Source of the DNA: Clostridia bacterium
Lineage (GTDB): Bacteria; Bacillota; Clostridia; Oscillospirales; Butyricicoccaceae
Reading direction: 5' to 3'
Assembly (NCBI GenBank): GCA_017444965.1
Contig: JAFSVO010000074.1
Coordinates: 1-33,809 of the forward strand
Length of the DNA stretch: 33,809 nt
Shown: in pieces, positions 1,123 to 6,330 of the stretch
Layout: the number at the start of each line of letters is the position of its first letter
Position numbering within the stretch: the stretch's first letter is position 1
Notes under the pieces: generated by a model
Seen by the model: the letters and a program-made list of their open reading frames with translations, nothing else
Database searches by the model: none
Told to the model about the DNA's origin: nothing
Made by a program: the position numbers and the translations under genes

Positions 1123-1151
1123 TTGACAAGTTTACAATTTAGTAATAAAAT
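1123..1151 (+). promoter_or_regulatory. Promoter of the liv leader and operon
   Basis: A consensus TTGACA (1123-1128) and a TAAAAT -10 (1146-1151) have a 17-bp spacer, placing the start of transcription near 1158. It lies just after the yfbR stop codon and about 290 nt upstream of livJ. No other promoter of comparable quality lies between 1151 and 1448. The TATTAT at 1425-1430 sits almost on the livJ ribosome site and would start transcripts too late to include it. The operon is therefore probably transcribed through the leader described next. Confidence 0.75.
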
Positions 1152-1182
1152 AAACACGTAATTTTTTTAAGGAGCGTTTTTT

Positions 1183-1371
1183 GTGAAAAAATCGTTTAAA
1201 AACGATATATTTACGTGTGCCATGCCGGCAGACGCTTCCTTTTATGCGTATGATATTATATTAAAAACGGACGCCCCCGGGGTGTCCGTTTCCGTTATAT
1301 CCTCCCTTGATTTACGCCTTAAAGGGCTGTTGATCGGCGGGGGGCGCCAAAGACCGGGGGTCGCGCGATAA
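1183..1371 (+). CDS. Putative Val/Leu/Ile-rich leader peptide of the liv operon
   Basis: A GTG-started ORF of 62 codons has an AAGGAG site (1169-1174) 8 nt upstream, so it looks translatable. I recognise no protein family. Its branched-chain content is striking. I25-I26-L27 (ATT ATA TTA) are consecutive, and residues 34-51 (VSVSVISSLDLRLKGLLI) contain ten Val, Ile or Leu in eighteen positions. The Ile-Ile-Leu codons (1255-1263) lie directly before a hairpin (1265-1291), and the stop codon is 13 nt before an intrinsic terminator that precedes livJ. That is the geometry expected of an attenuation leader peptide sensing branched-chain aminoacyl-tRNA. It could instead be a non-functional ORF in a structured 5' UTR. 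With this ORF removed, 1119-1447 holds only the promoter, hairpins and terminator listed separately. Confidence 0.5.
   Translation: MKKSFKNDIFTCAMPADASFYAYDIILKTDAPGVSVSVISSLDLRLKGLLIGGGRQRPGVAR
1265..1291 (+). promoter_or_regulatory. Leader hairpin, possible attenuator pause stem
   Basis: AAACGGAC at 1265-1272 pairs with GTCCGTTT at 1284-1291, and the stem extends inward through C/G pairs. The segment CCGTTTCCG (1286-1294) can alternatively pair with CGGAAA (1392-1397) and CGG (1401-1403) of the downstream terminator, skipping ACA, so the two structures could be mutually exclusive. On the plus strand only TTT-CCG-TT follows, so it is a poor terminator itself. It might still be a weak terminator for yfbR, and the A-tract on its left makes it terminator-like on the minus strand. 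Confidence 0.5.
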
Positions 1372-1384
1372 AGTAATGCAAATG

Positions 1385-1416
1385 GCGGCTCCGGAAAACA
1401 CGGAGCCGCGTTTTTG
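1385..1416 (+). terminator. Intrinsic terminator in the liv leader, just upstream of livJ
   Basis: GCGGCTCCG (1385-1393) pairs perfectly with CGGAGCCGC (1401-1409) around a 7-nt loop, followed by GTTTTTG. The livJ ribosome site (AAGGAG) starts about 20 nt further on. A strong terminator between the only good promoter and the first structural gene implies conditional read-through. Confidence 0.85.
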
Positions 1417-1447
1417 TAAAAAACTATTATAAAAGGAGATAGTAAAC

Positions 1448-2635
1448 ATGAAGAAGATCTTAGCGCTTATGCTCGTAGCGATGTTAGCTCTTACGCTCGT
1501 CGCCTGCGGCGAAAAGACGCCTGCCGAAACGACGGCTCCTGCCGACGACGGCGCCGGCGAAGAAACCGCGCAGAACCTTACCTTTAAGCTCGGCGGCACG
1601 GGCCCGCTCACCGGCGGCGCGGCCATCTACGGCCTCGCGGTCAAGAACGCGGCTGAAATAGCCGTTGAAGAGATCAACGCCATGGACGGCGTCCACTTCG
1701 AGCTTCAGTATCAGGACGACGCGCACGACGCCGAAAAGGCCGTCAACGCCTACAACGCCCTTAAGGACTGGGGCATGCAGATCTCGATGGGCTCGGTCAC
1801 CTCTACGCCCTGCGTAGCGACCGCTGCCGAGACCTATGCCGACCGCATCTTCGCGATCACCCCGTCCGGCTCCTCCACCGCTGTTCTTGAAGGCAACGAC
1901 AACCAGTTCCAGATGTGCTTCACCGATCCTAACCAGGGCTCGGCTTCCGCGCAGTACATCCATGACAAGGGCCTTGCCTCTAAGGTAGCGGTCATCTGGA
2001 AGAACGACGACGTTTATTCCAAGGGCATTTACGACACCTTTATGGCGGCGGCTCCCGGCCTCGGCCTTGAGATCGTAAGCGACACCACCTTCCAGGACGG
2101 CAACGACACCAACTTCTCCGTCCAGATAGCCGACGCTCAGAGCAAGGGCGCCGAGCTCGTATTCCTCCCCATGTACTACACCCCCGCCTCCCTCATCTTC
2201 GCTCAGGCGAAGGCGGTAGGCTATGAGCCGAAGTGGTTCGGCGTTGACGGTATGTACGGCATCCTTACCCTCGAAGGCTTTGACACCTCCCTTGCCGAAG
2301 GCGTCATCCTCCTTACCCCCTTCAACGCTGACTCCGAAGACGCGCGCACTCAGGCGTTCGTCGCCAAGTATCAGGAAAAGTTCGGCGAGATACCCAACCA
2401 GTTCGCCGCCGACGCTTATGACTGCGTCTACGCTTACAAGCAGGCCCTCGAGGATTCCGGCTGCACCGCCGATATGTCCCGTGAAGAGATCTGCGCCAAG
2501 ATGATAGAGCAGTTCACCACCATGACCTTCGACGGACTTACCGGCGACGGCATGACCTGGGACGCCACCGGCGCCGTTACCAAGAGCCCGAAGGGCATGG
2601 TCATCCAGAACGGCGCGTACGTCGGCCTTGACTGA
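1448..2635 (+). CDS. livJ: Branched-chain amino-acid ABC transporter substrate-binding lipoprotein
   Basis: The 395-residue protein starts with a lipoprotein signal peptide: KK, a hydrophobic core, and the lipobox LVAC with Cys20. A Thr/Ala/Glu-rich linker leads to a periplasmic-binding-protein type I fold of the Leu/Ile/Val-binding class (Peripla_BP_6). Typical signs are FKLGGTGPLTGGAAIYG near the start of the mature domain and the LVFLPMYYTPASLIFAQAKAVG segment between the lobes. It would be anchored to the outer face of the membrane and deliver amino acids to LivHM. The AAGGAG site is at a good distance. Codon choice is strongly C-ending, as expected for a highly expressed gene. It is the first gene of the liv operon. 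Family is sure; the exact ligand (Leu/Ile/Val or a related amino acid) is inferred from the neighbours. Confidence 0.93.
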   Translation: MKKILALMLVAMLALTLVACGEKTPAETTAPADDGAGEETAQNLTFKLGGTGPLTGGAAIYGLAVKNAAEIAVEEINAMDGVHFELQYQDDAHDAEKAVNAYNALKDWGMQISMGSVTSTPCVATAAETYADRIFAITPSGSSTAVLEGNDNQFQMCFTDPNQGSASAQYIHDKGLASKVAVIWKNDDVYSKGIYDTFMAAAPGLGLEIVSDTTFQDGNDTNFSVQIADAQSKGAELVFLPMYYTPASLIFAQAKAVGYEPKWFGVDGMYGILTLEGFDTSLAEGVILLTPFNADSEDARTQAFVAKYQEKFGEIPNQFAADAYDCVYAYKQALEDSGCTADMSREEICAKMIEQFTTMTFDGLTGDGMTWDATGAVTKSPKGMVIQNGAYVGLD

Positions 2636-2658
2636 TAAAAAGAATTAACGCTGCTTTA

Positions 2659-2687
2659 CGCGGGGACGGGCTTGCCCGTCCCCCGCG
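2659..2687 (+). other. Stable GC-rich hairpin between livJ and livH
   Basis: CGCGGGGACGGG (2659-2670) pairs with CCCGTCCCCCGCG (2675-2687) around a CTTG loop with one bulged C. No T-run follows, so it is not a simple intrinsic terminator. Its place just after the binding-protein gene suggests a processing or mRNA-stability element that lets livJ mRNA outlast the rest of the transcript. Confidence 0.7.
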
Positions 2688-2705
2688 AAAGCGGATAAGC
2701 GCGTG

Positions 2706-2743
2706 TCGGAAAAATGCCCGCTTTTCTGCGGACGTTGTTCCGA
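2706..2743 (+). other. Second nested stem-loop in the livJ-livH gap
   Basis: TCGGAA (2706-2711) pairs with TTCCGA (2738-2743), enclosing CCGC (2718-2721) that pairs with GCGG (2728-2731). It follows the first hairpin directly and is not followed by a U-tract. Its role is unknown. Nothing else is visible in the 166-nt gap apart from the livH ribosome site. Confidence 0.45.
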
Positions 2744-2801
2744 TGCGCGTTTACTCGCATTACGGAAAACAGAAATACGGCGTTTTTAAGGAGATAGGAT
2801 C

Positions 2802-3707
2802 ATGAGCTTGCTCGACTCTATTATCAACGGGATAAGTCTCGGAAGCATTTACGCTATAATAGCTTTGGGTTATACGATGGTGTACGGCATCGCGAAAATG
2901 CTCAACTTCGCGCACGGCGACGTTATAATGGTCGGCGCGTACGTCTGCTTTTTCGCGGCGACCCGTTTCGGCTTAAACCCGCTTGTGAGCGTGCTTATAG
3001 CGATGGTCGTGTGTACGCTTCTGGGCATCACCATTGAAAAACTCGCTTACGCGCCTCTGCGCTCCGCGCCGAGCCTCGCCGTTTTGATCACGGCTATCGG
3101 CGTAAGCTATTTTCTGCAGAACTTAGCGCTTCTTTTATGGTCGCCCAATCCGAAAGTTTTCCCCAACTTCTTTAAGAAAATTGCCGACGACGGCTCCGAG
3201 CTTACCGGCATAAATCTTTTCGGCGGGTCGCTCCGCATATCCTACGTTACGCTCGTTACGATACTCGTCTGCGTCGTCATAATGGTCGCGCTTACCGTTT
3301 TTATCAACAACGGAAAGCTTGGCAAGGCGATGCGCGCCTGCTCTGAGGATAAGGATACGGCGCGGCTCATGGGAATAAACGTGAACACGACTATTTCGGT
3401 GACCTTCGCTATAGGCTCGGGGCTTGCCGCGATAGCCGGCGTTCTGCTCTGCTCGGCTTATCCGACGCTTGTTCCGACGACCGGTTCGATGCCCGGCATA
3501 AAGGCGTTCACGGCGGCGGTCTTCGGCGGCATCGGCTCGGTGCCCGGCGCGCTTTTGGGCGGACTTACGCTCGGCGTTATAGAGATACTCGCCAAGGCGT
3601 ATATATCGACTCAGCTTTCAGACGCGGTCGTGTTCGCCGTGCTTATAATCGTTCTTCTTGTCAAGCCGTCGGGGCTTTTGGGCAGGAAGATAAACGAAAA
3701 GGTTTAA
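2802..3707 (+). CDS. livH: Branched-chain amino-acid ABC transporter permease LivH
   Basis: This 301-residue integral membrane protein is of the BPD_transp_2 family, with about eight hydrophobic segments. It opens in the LivH style (GISLGSIYAIIALGYTMVYGI), followed by LNFAHGDVIMVGAY. The cytoplasmic loop that contacts the ATPase is visible around residues 178-200 (GKAMRACSEDKDTARLMGIN). It ends with AVFGGIGSVPGALLGG and a short charged tail. It forms the membrane channel together with LivM. The start follows an AAGGAG site. It lies 166 nt after livJ and 12 nt before livM in the same operon. Length and motifs are normal for the family. Confidence 0.95.
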   Translation: MSLLDSIINGISLGSIYAIIALGYTMVYGIAKMLNFAHGDVIMVGAYVCFFAATRFGLNPLVSVLIAMVVCTLLGITIEKLAYAPLRSAPSLAVLITAIGVSYFLQNLALLLWSPNPKVFPNFFKKIADDGSELTGINLFGGSLRISYVTLVTILVCVVIMVALTVFINNGKLGKAMRACSEDKDTARLMGINVNTTISVTFAIGSGLAAIAGVLLCSAYPTLVPTTGSMPGIKAFTAAVFGGIGSVPGALLGGLTLGVIEILAKAYISTQLSDAVVFAVLIIVLLVKPSGLLGRKINEKV

Positions 3708-3719
3708 GGAGGTGCCGGC

Positions 3720-4775
3720 GTGAAGAAACTCGGTATTTCCAAGGCCTCACAAAAAGCGTTCACGACATACGGCGTCGTCATAGCGGCGTTTGCCGTTATG
3801 CAGATAGTCGGCGCGACCGGGAATATGTCCTCAATGTTAAAGGGCATGCTCGTGCCTATCTGCGCTTACGTCGTTATGGCGGTGTCGCTTAACCTTACCG
3901 TCGGCGTACTGGGCGAGCTTTCGCTCGGGCACGCGGGGTTTATGAGCGTCGGCGCCTTTATGGGCGTTACCGCGGCGTCCGCGCTTCGCGACTCCGGTCT
4001 TTCCGCGGGACTGCGCCTCGCGATAGCGATGGTTGTAGGCGCCCTGTTCGCGGGCATCGTCGGCTTCCTCGTCGGCATACCCGTCCTGCGCTTGAACGGC
4101 GACTACCTCGCGATAGTGACTCTCGCCTTCGGCGAGATAATCAAGAGCATTTTCAACAATATGTATCTCGGCTTTGACAAAAAGGGTTTCCATATAAGCC
4201 TTTTGACCGACAAAGTCAGCGCCGGGCTCGGCGAGGGCGGCAAGCTTATAATCGGCGGGCCTATGGGAATAGGCGGCATACAAAAAATAGCCACCTTTAC
4301 GGCGGGCTTCATTCTTATAATGATTTGCCTCGTCGTTATCTTCAACCTTGTCAACAGCCGCGCCGGCCGCGCCATCATGGCGATACGCGACAACAGGATA
4401 GCCGCCGAGAGCGTCGGCATACCCGTTACGAAATATAAAATGATGGCGTTCGTCACGTCCGCCGCGATGGCGGGCTCCGCGGGCGCTCTGTTCGCGCTCA
4501 ATTTCTCGACGATAGTCGCGAACAAGTTTGATTTCAACACGTCGATACTCGTTCTGGTATTCGTGGTCTTAGGCGGCCTCGGCAATATGCTCGGCTCGAT
4601 AATCGCCGCGACGGCGCTCGTTATCCTGCCCGAGGTGCTGCGCCAGTTCAGAGATTACCGCATGCTCGTTTACGCAATAGTGCTTATCCTCGTAATGCTG
4701 ATACGGAACAATCCCGCGATAAAGAACTTTACCGGGCGGTTCCGCACAGGTAAGAAAGGGGGCGCCGAGAAATGA
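3720..4775 (+). CDS. livM: Branched-chain amino-acid ABC transporter permease LivM
   Basis: The 351-residue membrane protein starts at a GTG preceded by AAGGAGGTG. It has multiple hydrophobic helices, the family segment LSLGHAGFMSVGAF near residue 66, and the ATPase-contacting loop RAIMAIRDNRIAAESVGIP around residues 217-235. It pairs with LivH to form the translocation pore. An N-terminal hydrophobic segment of about 20 residues and a basic C-terminus (RFRTGKKGG) are normal for the family. The last four bases overlap the livG start (ATGA), indicating translational coupling. Confidence 0.95.
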   Translation: MKKLGISKASQKAFTTYGVVIAAFAVMQIVGATGNMSSMLKGMLVPICAYVVMAVSLNLTVGVLGELSLGHAGFMSVGAFMGVTAASALRDSGLSAGLRLAIAMVVGALFAGIVGFLVGIPVLRLNGDYLAIVTLAFGEIIKSIFNNMYLGFDKKGFHISLLTDKVSAGLGEGGKLIIGGPMGIGGIQKIATFTAGFILIMICLVVIFNLVNSRAGRAIMAIRDNRIAAESVGIPVTKYKMMAFVTSAAMAGSAGALFALNFSTIVANKFDFNTSILVLVFVVLGGLGNMLGSIIAATALVILPEVLRQFRDYRMLVYAIVLILVMLIRNNPAIKNFTGRFRTGKKGGAEK

Positions 4776-5623
4776 GCTATAAAAAACGTCCCGAAACCAA
4801 GATGGTGCCGGTCGATTCGCACGCCATAGTCCCCGAGCGCGACGCCGATAAAAGCCCGATACTCGAATGCCATCATTTAGGCATCGATTTCGGCGGTCTT
4901 TCCGCCGTCAGCGACTTCAACCTTATGATAGGCCGCACCGAGATAGCGGGGCTTATAGGCCCCAACGGCGCGGGCAAAACGACCGTTTTCAACCTGCTTA
5001 CGAAGGTCTATCAGCCGACCCGCGGCTCGATACTTTTAGACGGCAACGACACGTCGAAGATGACGACGGCGCAGATAAACCGCGCCGGTATAGCCCGTAC
5101 CTTCCAGAATATCCGTCTTTTCTCCAACCATTCGGTCGAAGACAACGTAAAGCTCGGGCTTCACAATCAGATAAAATACGGTATGTTCGGCGGCGTTCTG
5201 CGTCTGCCCCATTACTGGAAGGAAGAAAAGCAGGCGCATGAGCGCGCGCTTGAGCTTTTGTCGATATTCGACATGGCGGGTCTTGCCGACGTACAGGCGG
5301 GCTCTCTTCCATACGGCGCGCAGCGCAGGCTTGAGATAGTCCGCGCTTTGGCGACAAATCCGTCCCTTCTGCTTTTAGACGAGCCCGCCGCGGGCATGAA
5401 CCCGGTCGAAACGGGCGAGCTTATGGACAATATTATAAAAATAAGAGATACCTTTAACATAGCGGTACTGCTCATAGAACACGATATGAGCCTCGTTATG
5501 GGCATTTGCGAAGGCATTTGCGTACTTAACTTCGGCAAGATAATCGCAAAGGGCACTCCCGAGGAGATAAAGAACAACCCCGCCGTTATAGAAGCCTATC
5601 TCGGCAAAAAGGAGGATAACTGA
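4772..5623 (+). CDS. livG: Branched-chain amino-acid ABC transporter ATP-binding protein LivG
   Basis: This 283-residue ABC ATPase has Walker A GPNGAGKTT at residues 63-71, a Q-loop in FQNIRLF, a divergent signature LPYGAQRRLE in place of LSYGxQR, Walker B LLLLDEPAAGMNP, and the switch His in LLIEHDM. The BCA_ABC_TP_C-type tail (GTPEEIKNNPAVIEAYLG) is typical of LivG. Unusually, about 30 charged residues precede the ABC domain, which itself starts near LECHHLGIDFGG. The start overlaps livM (ATGA) and the stop overlaps livF (TGATG). An in-frame later start is possible, but the ATGA overlap favours the one given. Confidence 0.94.
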   Translation: MSYKKRPETKMVPVDSHAIVPERDADKSPILECHHLGIDFGGLSAVSDFNLMIGRTEIAGLIGPNGAGKTTVFNLLTKVYQPTRGSILLDGNDTSKMTTAQINRAGIARTFQNIRLFSNHSVEDNVKLGLHNQIKYGMFGGVLRLPHYWKEEKQAHERALELLSIFDMAGLADVQAGSLPYGAQRRLEIVRALATNPSLLLLDEPAAGMNPVETGELMDNIIKIRDTFNIAVLLIEHDMSLVMGICEGICVLNFGKIIAKGTPEEIKNNPAVIEAYLGKKEDN

Positions 5624-6330
5624 TGGCTCTTCTGGAAGTCAACTACATTAACGTCTATTACGGCGCCATCCACGCGATAAAGGGCATATCCTTCTACGTC
5701 AACGAGGGCGAGATAGTCACGCTTATAGGCGCGAACGGCGCGGGCAAATCGACTACGCTTAAAACTATTTCGGGCATAATGCACCCGGCGACCGGCAATA
5801 TAGTGTTCGACGGCAAGGACCTTCACGGCGTGCCGGCGCACAAGATAGTTTCGATGGGCCTTGCGCAGGTGCCCGAGGGCAGGCGCGTATTCCTCAATAT
5901 GACGGTCGAGGAAAATCTCGAGATGGGCGCCTACACTCAGCCGAACGGCACGATCTCTTCTTCTTTGGAAGACGTATACGAAAGGTTCCCGCGCCTTAAA
6001 GAGCGCCGCCGTCAGATAGCCGGCACCCTTTCGGGCGGCGAACAGCAGATGCTCGCCATGGGCAGGGCGCTTATGTCCCGCCCCAAGCTGATGATGCTCG
6101 ACGAGCCGTCGATGGGTCTCGCGCCTATCCTCGTTCAGCAGATATTCGACATAATTAAAGAGCTGCACGCTTCGGGAAGCACTATACTTTTAGTCGAGCA
6201 GAACGCGCAGAAGGCGCTGTCTATCGCCGACAGGGGCTACGTTCTGGAAACAGGCAATATAGTCACCACCGGCACGGGGCAGGAACTTCTTAATTCCGAC
6301 TCGATAAAGAAAGCGTATCTCGGCGGTTGA
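5623..6330 (+). CDS. livF: Branched-chain amino-acid ABC transporter ATP-binding protein LivF
   Basis: The 235-residue ATPase is of standard LivF length. It shows Walker A GANGAGKST near residues 36-44, the Q-loop region QVPEGRRVFLNMTVEENL characteristic of LivF, signature LSGGEQQMLAMGRAL, Walker B LMMLDEPSMGLAP, and the switch His replaced by Gln in LLVEQN, as is usual in this subfamily. Its ATG shares its A with the livG stop, and GGAGG lies just upstream. It is the last gene of the operon and ends 18 nt before a strong bidirectional terminator. Confidence 0.95.
   Translation: MALLEVNYINVYYGAIHAIKGISFYVNEGEIVTLIGANGAGKSTTLKTISGIMHPATGNIVFDGKDLHGVPAHKIVSMGLAQVPEGRRVFLNMTVEENLEMGAYTQPNGTISSSLEDVYERFPRLKERRRQIAGTLSGGEQQMLAMGRALMSRPKLMMLDEPSMGLAPILVQQIFDIIKELHASGSTILLVEQNAQKALSIADRGYVLETGNIVTTGTGQELLNSDSIKKAYLGG

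Follow-up and report, generated by a model that had tools for sequence, protein, structure and literature searches.

In the trp, ilv, and leu attenuators of enterobacteria, a leader open reading frame (ORF) with a run of control codons for the respective amino acid precedes antiterminator and terminator hairpins that overlap. In Bacillota, the regulation of amino-acid uptake is commonly attributed to T-boxes or CodY. Herein, we describe the leader of livJHMGF, the operon of a branched-chain amino-acid (BCAA; Ile/Leu/Val, or I/L/V) ABC importer with livJ as its first gene, in the window, i.e., the whole 33,809-nucleotide stretch of DNA that was analyzed. The liv leader shares the control-codon run and, as predicted by folding, the overlapping antiterminator and terminator with the enterobacterial systems. 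However, it precedes an importer rather than a biosynthetic operon, its ORF is longer (53-98 codons among the relatives vs roughly 15-30), conserved hairpins lie within that ORF, and it falls into no Rfam leader family.

Closer to home, the ilv-leu operon of Listeria monocytogenes is controlled by Rli60, a ribosome-mediated attenuator that has been tested experimentally (PMC5864092). As proposed for the liv leader, a BCAA-rich peptide of a Bacillota member is combined with an overlapping terminator and antiterminator, but the Rli60 peptide counts only 13 residues and the operon is biosynthetic (PMC5864092). Ribosome-mediated attenuation with a leucine-rich attenuator peptide has also been reported for ilv-leu of Staphylococcus aureus, likewise of the Bacillota, where an Ile/Leu-rich leader ORF has a terminator past its stop; this operon is again biosynthetic, and its proposed antiterminator sequesters the poly-U rather than the 5' arm of the terminator (PMC5794164). 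The ilvBNC leader of Corynebacterium glutamicum is another reported case of ribosome-mediated attenuation of a BCAA operon, described by a three-hairpin model, though in Actinobacteria and on a biosynthetic operon (PMC11857589). In addition, predictions of his leaders exist for Bacilli (PMC2965389). Our literature search, mostly outside subscription journals, found no leader-peptide attenuator on a liv importer, nor one in Oscillospirales or Synergistota. While ilv-leu attenuation in Listeria and S. aureus is thus known already, the family, the transporter target, the occurrence in two phyla, and the long hairpin-bearing leader ORF are new.

The T-box riboswitch (RF00230) resembles the proposed liv attenuator in controlling premature termination and senses uncharged tRNA, but there is none at the liv operon: the covariance model had no match there or elsewhere in the window, in agreement with the preliminary description of this DNA. 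The search could have detected one, since T-boxes above the cut-off occur elsewhere in the same genome (G000), namely before valS on contig 84 (L138) and before a tryptophan-synthase-beta-like (trpB-like) gene on contig 64 (L139), both genes being named from their translated sequence. T-box control of valS would thus coexist with a leader-peptide attenuator on the importer. A CodY box near the promoter would likewise be compatible with attenuation. None of the 4227 families of Rfam 15 scored above its gathering threshold, apart from tRNAs in the locus of a relative; matches to BSnc120, BcKCsr2, isrG, and L20_leader lay far below the Rfam gathering scores and were rejected.

The liv leader and its relatives

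The leader occupies the interval 1123-1447 between a gene for a YfbR-like 5'-deoxynucleotidase (531-1118) and livJ, and its features are collected in Table 1. We consider it very likely that it acts as a ribosome-mediated (leader-peptide) transcription attenuator of livJHMGF, with the importer most likely being turned on when ribosomes stall from a shortage of Ile, Leu, or Val. Of the 15 promoter-like sites within the first 7 kb, this promoter is the best; the transcript is expected to start near 1157-1160, and the GTG start codon (1183) lies eight nt downstream of the Shine-Dalgarno sequence. The preliminary description had named this promoter, the Shine-Dalgarno sequence, the 62-codon GTG ORF, and its Ile-Ile-Leu codons (ATT-ATA-TTA for Ile25-Ile26-Leu27 at 1255-1263), all of which are present. 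It was equally right about a hairpin after these codons and about a perfect terminator, whose hairpin (1385-1409) starts 13 nt after the ORF stop, has nine perfect pairs followed by GTTTTTG, and reaches -20.8 kcal/mol. Folding of the leader RNA gives z = -4.0, and none of 200 shuffles did as well. A further, very stable hairpin, this one without a T-run, lies between livJ and livH (2651-2694; -34.1 kcal/mol, z -4.8) and is possibly an mRNA-stabilizing element by which more binding protein than permease is made.

Table 1. Features of the liv leader and operon, with positions in the window
Feature	Position	Strand	Details
Sigma-70-type promoter, TTGACA-17-TAAAAT	1123-1151	+	11 of 12 consensus positions; TTGACWTT-N-TAAAAT-type before the leader ORF of relatives
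Shine-Dalgarno AAGGAG, leader ORF	1169-1174	+	Similar sequence before the leader ORFs of relatives too
Leader ORF, 62 codons, GTG start, TAA stop (1369-1371)	1183-1371	+	Homologous ORFs at about 30 livJ loci
Hairpin A region, ACGUGUGC / GCAGACGC	1213-1235	+	6 of 8 standard pairs in the window; first conserved leader-RNA element
Hairpin B, core GGACGCC (1269-1275) / GGUGUCC (1281-1287)	1265-1291	+	12 bp in the window, -19.6 to -20.1 kcal/mol
Proposed control codons Leu49-Leu50-Ile51, CTG TTG ATC	1327-1335	+	Close the I/L/V cluster, 12 codons ahead of the stop
Predicted protector hairpin, 1344-1347/1363-1366 and 1352-1355/1359-1362	1344-1366	+	-9.7 kcal/mol (dot-bracket folds)
Predicted antiterminator strand, GGGGUCGC	1357-1364	+	Pairs with 1385-1392, 8 bp, -12.6 kcal/mol; just before the ORF stop
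Intrinsic terminator, GCGGCTCCG..CGGAGCCGC GTTTTT	1385-1415	+	Upstream of livJ; homologous terminator in relatives
Shine-Dalgarno AAGGAG, livJ	1433-1438	+	Sequence
Controlled operon livJHMGF	1448-6330	+	livJ 1448-2635, livH 2802-3707, livM 3720-4775, livG 4772-5623, livF 5623-6330

All three genus mates of the window's organism lack a LivJ match, and a DNA search with the leader across 87 genomes of the family found no homologous leader outside its own genome; two matches in family genomes proved to be an unrelated promoter or short-stretch similarity. We therefore turned to public genomes, using LivJ as the query, and inspected the sequence preceding livJ. About 30 livJ loci have a sigma-70 promoter, a Shine-Dalgarno sequence, a leader ORF (53-98 codons), a terminator, a second Shine-Dalgarno sequence, and livJ in this same order, which bears out the general idea of an attenuator in the preliminary description. 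The loci belong to Oscillospirales (Oscillospiraceae, Oscillibacter-like) and to Synergistaceae (Fretibacterium: L047, L067, and L069). Whole-genome pattern searches contributed about ten further loci, and wherever their downstream gene was read it was livJ-like. Alignment of the leaders, a check that had been suggested from the start, revealed a reading frame conserved in about 30 loci, and 30 leaders, including that of the window, can be aligned over their full length.

Several searches bear on the membership of the window's own leader. A covariance model of the region of hairpins A and B, built from 18 relatives with the window left out, was run over both strands of the window; its best match there is 1209-1299, in register (15.7 bits; E 0.032, referred to the whole window), and the second-best match scores 13.0 bits. 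The best match of a DNA profile, again made without the window, is 1326-1427 (E 0.005), spanning the ORF end and the terminator. Moreover, the 17 bases GGCAGACGCTTCCTTTT (1227-1243) have a single mismatch to the leader of L032. Because a protein profile of the leaders did not detect the window's ORF, we read this leader, on the basis of its sequence, as a diverged and shortened member of the family. Its I/L/V cluster is weaker than that of most leaders, and no close relative carries it.

Conserved hairpins and the leader peptide

Two RNA hairpins recur inside the leader ORFs. Hairpin A has the consensus GCGUCYGC ... GCAGACGC in the relatives, with 79.6% of cells paired and covariation not above shuffles. 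The consensus of hairpin B is GGACGCC-loop-GGCGUCC (GGYGUCC), followed by AUU codons. Of 34 leaders, 32 have every pair of its 7-bp stem, substituted versions included, and the stem is intact in the window. Here, too, covariation does not exceed shuffles, a test that says little given a nearly invariant stem; the leader of L016 has one compensatory change. In nearly all leaders hairpin B codes for D/G-A-x-x-x-A-S-I-I-I, and the window's version agrees in frame and length with that of L054 (DAPGVSV). Hairpins A and B would, we infer, pause RNA polymerase within the ORF (with pausing after B likewise), letting the ribosome catch up. An alternative pairing of A strands with B strands (GCGUCC with GGACGC) was discarded because, in the alignments, leaders with altered A strands largely preserve the complementarity between the two halves of A, next to an unchanged B stem.

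The encoded peptides are rich in branched-chain residues. The densest 18 residues of the window's ORF hold ten I/L/V, against a mean of 6.0 in dinucleotide shuffles of the ORF (p = 0.007), and the cluster of ten Val/Ile/Leu noticed earlier is thereby confirmed. All 30 leaders have 10-15 I/L/V per 18 residues, with p <= 0.04 in 29 of them, and aligned I/L/V positions keep I/L/V in 73% (background 29%). Codon choice is equally distinctive: AUU makes up 80% of Ile codons in the leaders vs 20% in downstream ORFs of the same loci, and GUA 43% of Val codons vs 5%, with other A-ending codons barely enriched. This bias applies to the pooled leaders, that of the window having too few codons to display it. 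In 22 of 29 leaders, the cluster's last I/L/V codon is found 12-16 codons ahead of the stop (most commonly 14, in the window 12), and ORF length varies widely. In short, three of the features by which an attenuator is judged are found together, namely a promoter with an intermediate terminator, a conserved in-frame leader ORF, and a cluster of cognate control codons.

Alternatively, the ORF might encode a real small membrane protein that is co-regulated with the transporter, so that the I/L/V residues form a transmembrane helix and the terminator does no more than adjust expression levels. The hydrophobicity of the stretch would suffice for one helix, and as many as 12-13 I/L/V per 18 residues occur in downstream ORFs of these loci, some of which encode membrane proteins, yet 16 of the 30 leaders attain 13-15, and F/M/W/Y occupy just 7% of the aligned I/L/V positions. 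Ka/Ks points both ways, as it is 0.31-0.74 in eight of ten leader pairs but above 1 in two close pairs, a pattern that would fit weak selection on the peptide. Outside the RNA hairpin, residue identity is low, and in two Synergistaceae leaders (L052 and L063) the GGACGCC element is even read in another frame (GGA CGC C), amid I/L/V codons, with the whole stem intact in L052. Taken with the regulatory-type codon bias and the fixed distance from cluster end to stop, these observations make a membrane protein quite unlikely.

The terminator and the proposed switch

In the relatives, 96.4% of the terminator cells are paired, and three pairs are changed on both sides, a result matched by just 3 of 500 shuffles. 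Of the covariation that the preliminary description hoped to find in the stems, this is the part that materialized: covariation backs the terminator only and not the antiterminator, whose score in the relatives' alignment is not above shuffles and whose sequence hardly varies, and hairpins A and B fare no better.

It is very unlikely that the terminator works independently of ORF translation, being either constitutive or otherwise triggered, for instance by ending an sRNA or the message of the yfbR-like gene upstream. A strong terminator between two same-strand genes would suit such a role, but a near-consensus promoter separates the upstream gene (stop at 1118) from the ORF, 266 nt lie between that gene and the terminator, and the ORF, its Shine-Dalgarno sequence, and its codon features are conserved even though the upstream sequences of the relatives differ.

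For a ribosome-mediated attenuator, the question is then how translation could reach the terminator. Most leaders can fold a long hairpin out of the final codons, the stop, and the 15-20 nt that follow, with the 5' arm of the terminator as part of it. The energy of this stop-proximal antiterminator is below that of shuffles (Fisher p 2e-7 over 29 sequences, with kin treated as independent), and pairing of the terminator arm has p 8e-5 across leaders, which are related sequences. In the window alone, p is only 0.05-0.075 against shuffles, and folding leads us to lean slightly toward the exact antiterminator 1357-1364:1385-1392 there.

When the window's leader is folded without the 3' arm of the terminator, the 5' arm is paired upstream at nearly every stall position up to codon 54. 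Its partner at most of them is 1355-1364, with the 8-bp antiterminator as core. The arm comes free when the ribosome moves into about the last eight codons. The sequestered fraction is 0.94 averaged over stalls at I/L/V codons vs 0.06 when the ribosome occupies the last sense codon; the means over 29 leaders are 0.65 vs 0.10 at the ORF end, the direction being the same in 28 of 29. Since a modeled ribosome at the stop fails to free the arm in the Synergistaceae leaders L047, L067, and L069, the geometry may differ there. As the ribosome moves over Leu49-Leu50-Ile51, the remaining protector structure is predicted to fall to -7.2 and then to -3.9 kcal/mol. Equilibrium folding always favors the terminator (P = 1), and the switch must therefore work kinetically, during transcription, as is assumed for other attenuators.

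From the features and conservation observed so far we infer stalling, a switch, and a response to amino acids, which would proceed as follows. Transcription would begin near 1157, and a ribosome would translate the 62-codon leader. With ample charged Ile-, Leu-, and Val-tRNA, it would reach the stop codon and cover 1357-1364, in which case the terminator would form and leave livJ untranscribed. If the charged tRNAs were scarce, it would stall in the I/L/V cluster that ends with Leu49-Leu50-Ile51 and weaken the protector, after which 1357-1364 could pair with 1385-1392 and RNA polymerase could read through into liv. On these folding models, the logic would be that of a classical three-strand attenuator, where a Leu-Leu-Ile stall leads to the antiterminator and arrival at the stop leads to the terminator.

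The preliminary description had placed the switch elsewhere, in a stall at Ile25-Ile26-Leu27 that frees 1286-1294 to open the terminator via CGGAAA and CGG, which is highly improbable: the bases are partly complementary, and the arm does pair with about 1287-1295 in folds with the ribosome at 1267-1270, but pairing of this type is present at just two ribosome positions, and the duplex, at -6.6 kcal/mol, is weaker than both 1357-1364:1385-1392 (-12.6) and hairpin B (-20.1), the competitor that it must break. The modeling thus suggests that the switch probably does not reside in the Ile-Ile-Leu codons and strand 1286-1294, and that the better-supported candidate is the 3' end of the ORF with its predicted protector, antiterminator, and control codons.

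More broadly, the chances seem about even that these leaders form an undescribed family of BCAA attenuators in gut and rumen Oscillospirales and Synergistota. Such a family would be marked by a long ORF (about 90 codons), two conserved hairpins that keep RNA polymerase and the ribosome in step, and an antiterminator near the stop such that the ribosome's arrival there means OFF for import, and it would also have been recruited by another permease gene. A leader-peptide attenuator on an importer in two phyla would offer a sensor of Ile/Leu/Val shortage that can be read from sequence in these uncultured organisms. With its fixed geometry, its codon bias, and in-frame hairpins that hardly vary, the mechanism lends itself directly to reporter tests, and such short ORFs are better not annotated as hypothetical proteins.

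Additional leaders in the searched genomes

Two genomes hold a second leader of the liv-leader family. One of these (L136; G609 contig 45, 68591-68690, minus strand; E 3e-8) has a hairpin B stem of 10 bp and a terminator-like hairpin, followed by a gene of the lactate permease family (PF02652, E 1e-35) rather than livJ. The other, weaker member (L137; G463 contig 50, 38620-38725, minus strand; E 0.004) precedes another LivJ-like binding protein, and its hairpin B stem is substituted with six of seven core pairs kept.

The closest LivJ relatives of the window (L012 and L013, about 80% identity) have a different leader. About 160-340 nt upstream of livJ lies a short Val-rich leader ORF (ending ..ILSVGVVGVNAHIPF before its stop), followed by a terminator, and this is perhaps an independent attenuator. 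In several Synergistaceae (L041, L050, and L071), a short Ile-rich ORF and a terminator upstream of livJ come directly after tRNA genes, with which the liv leader may be cotranscribed.
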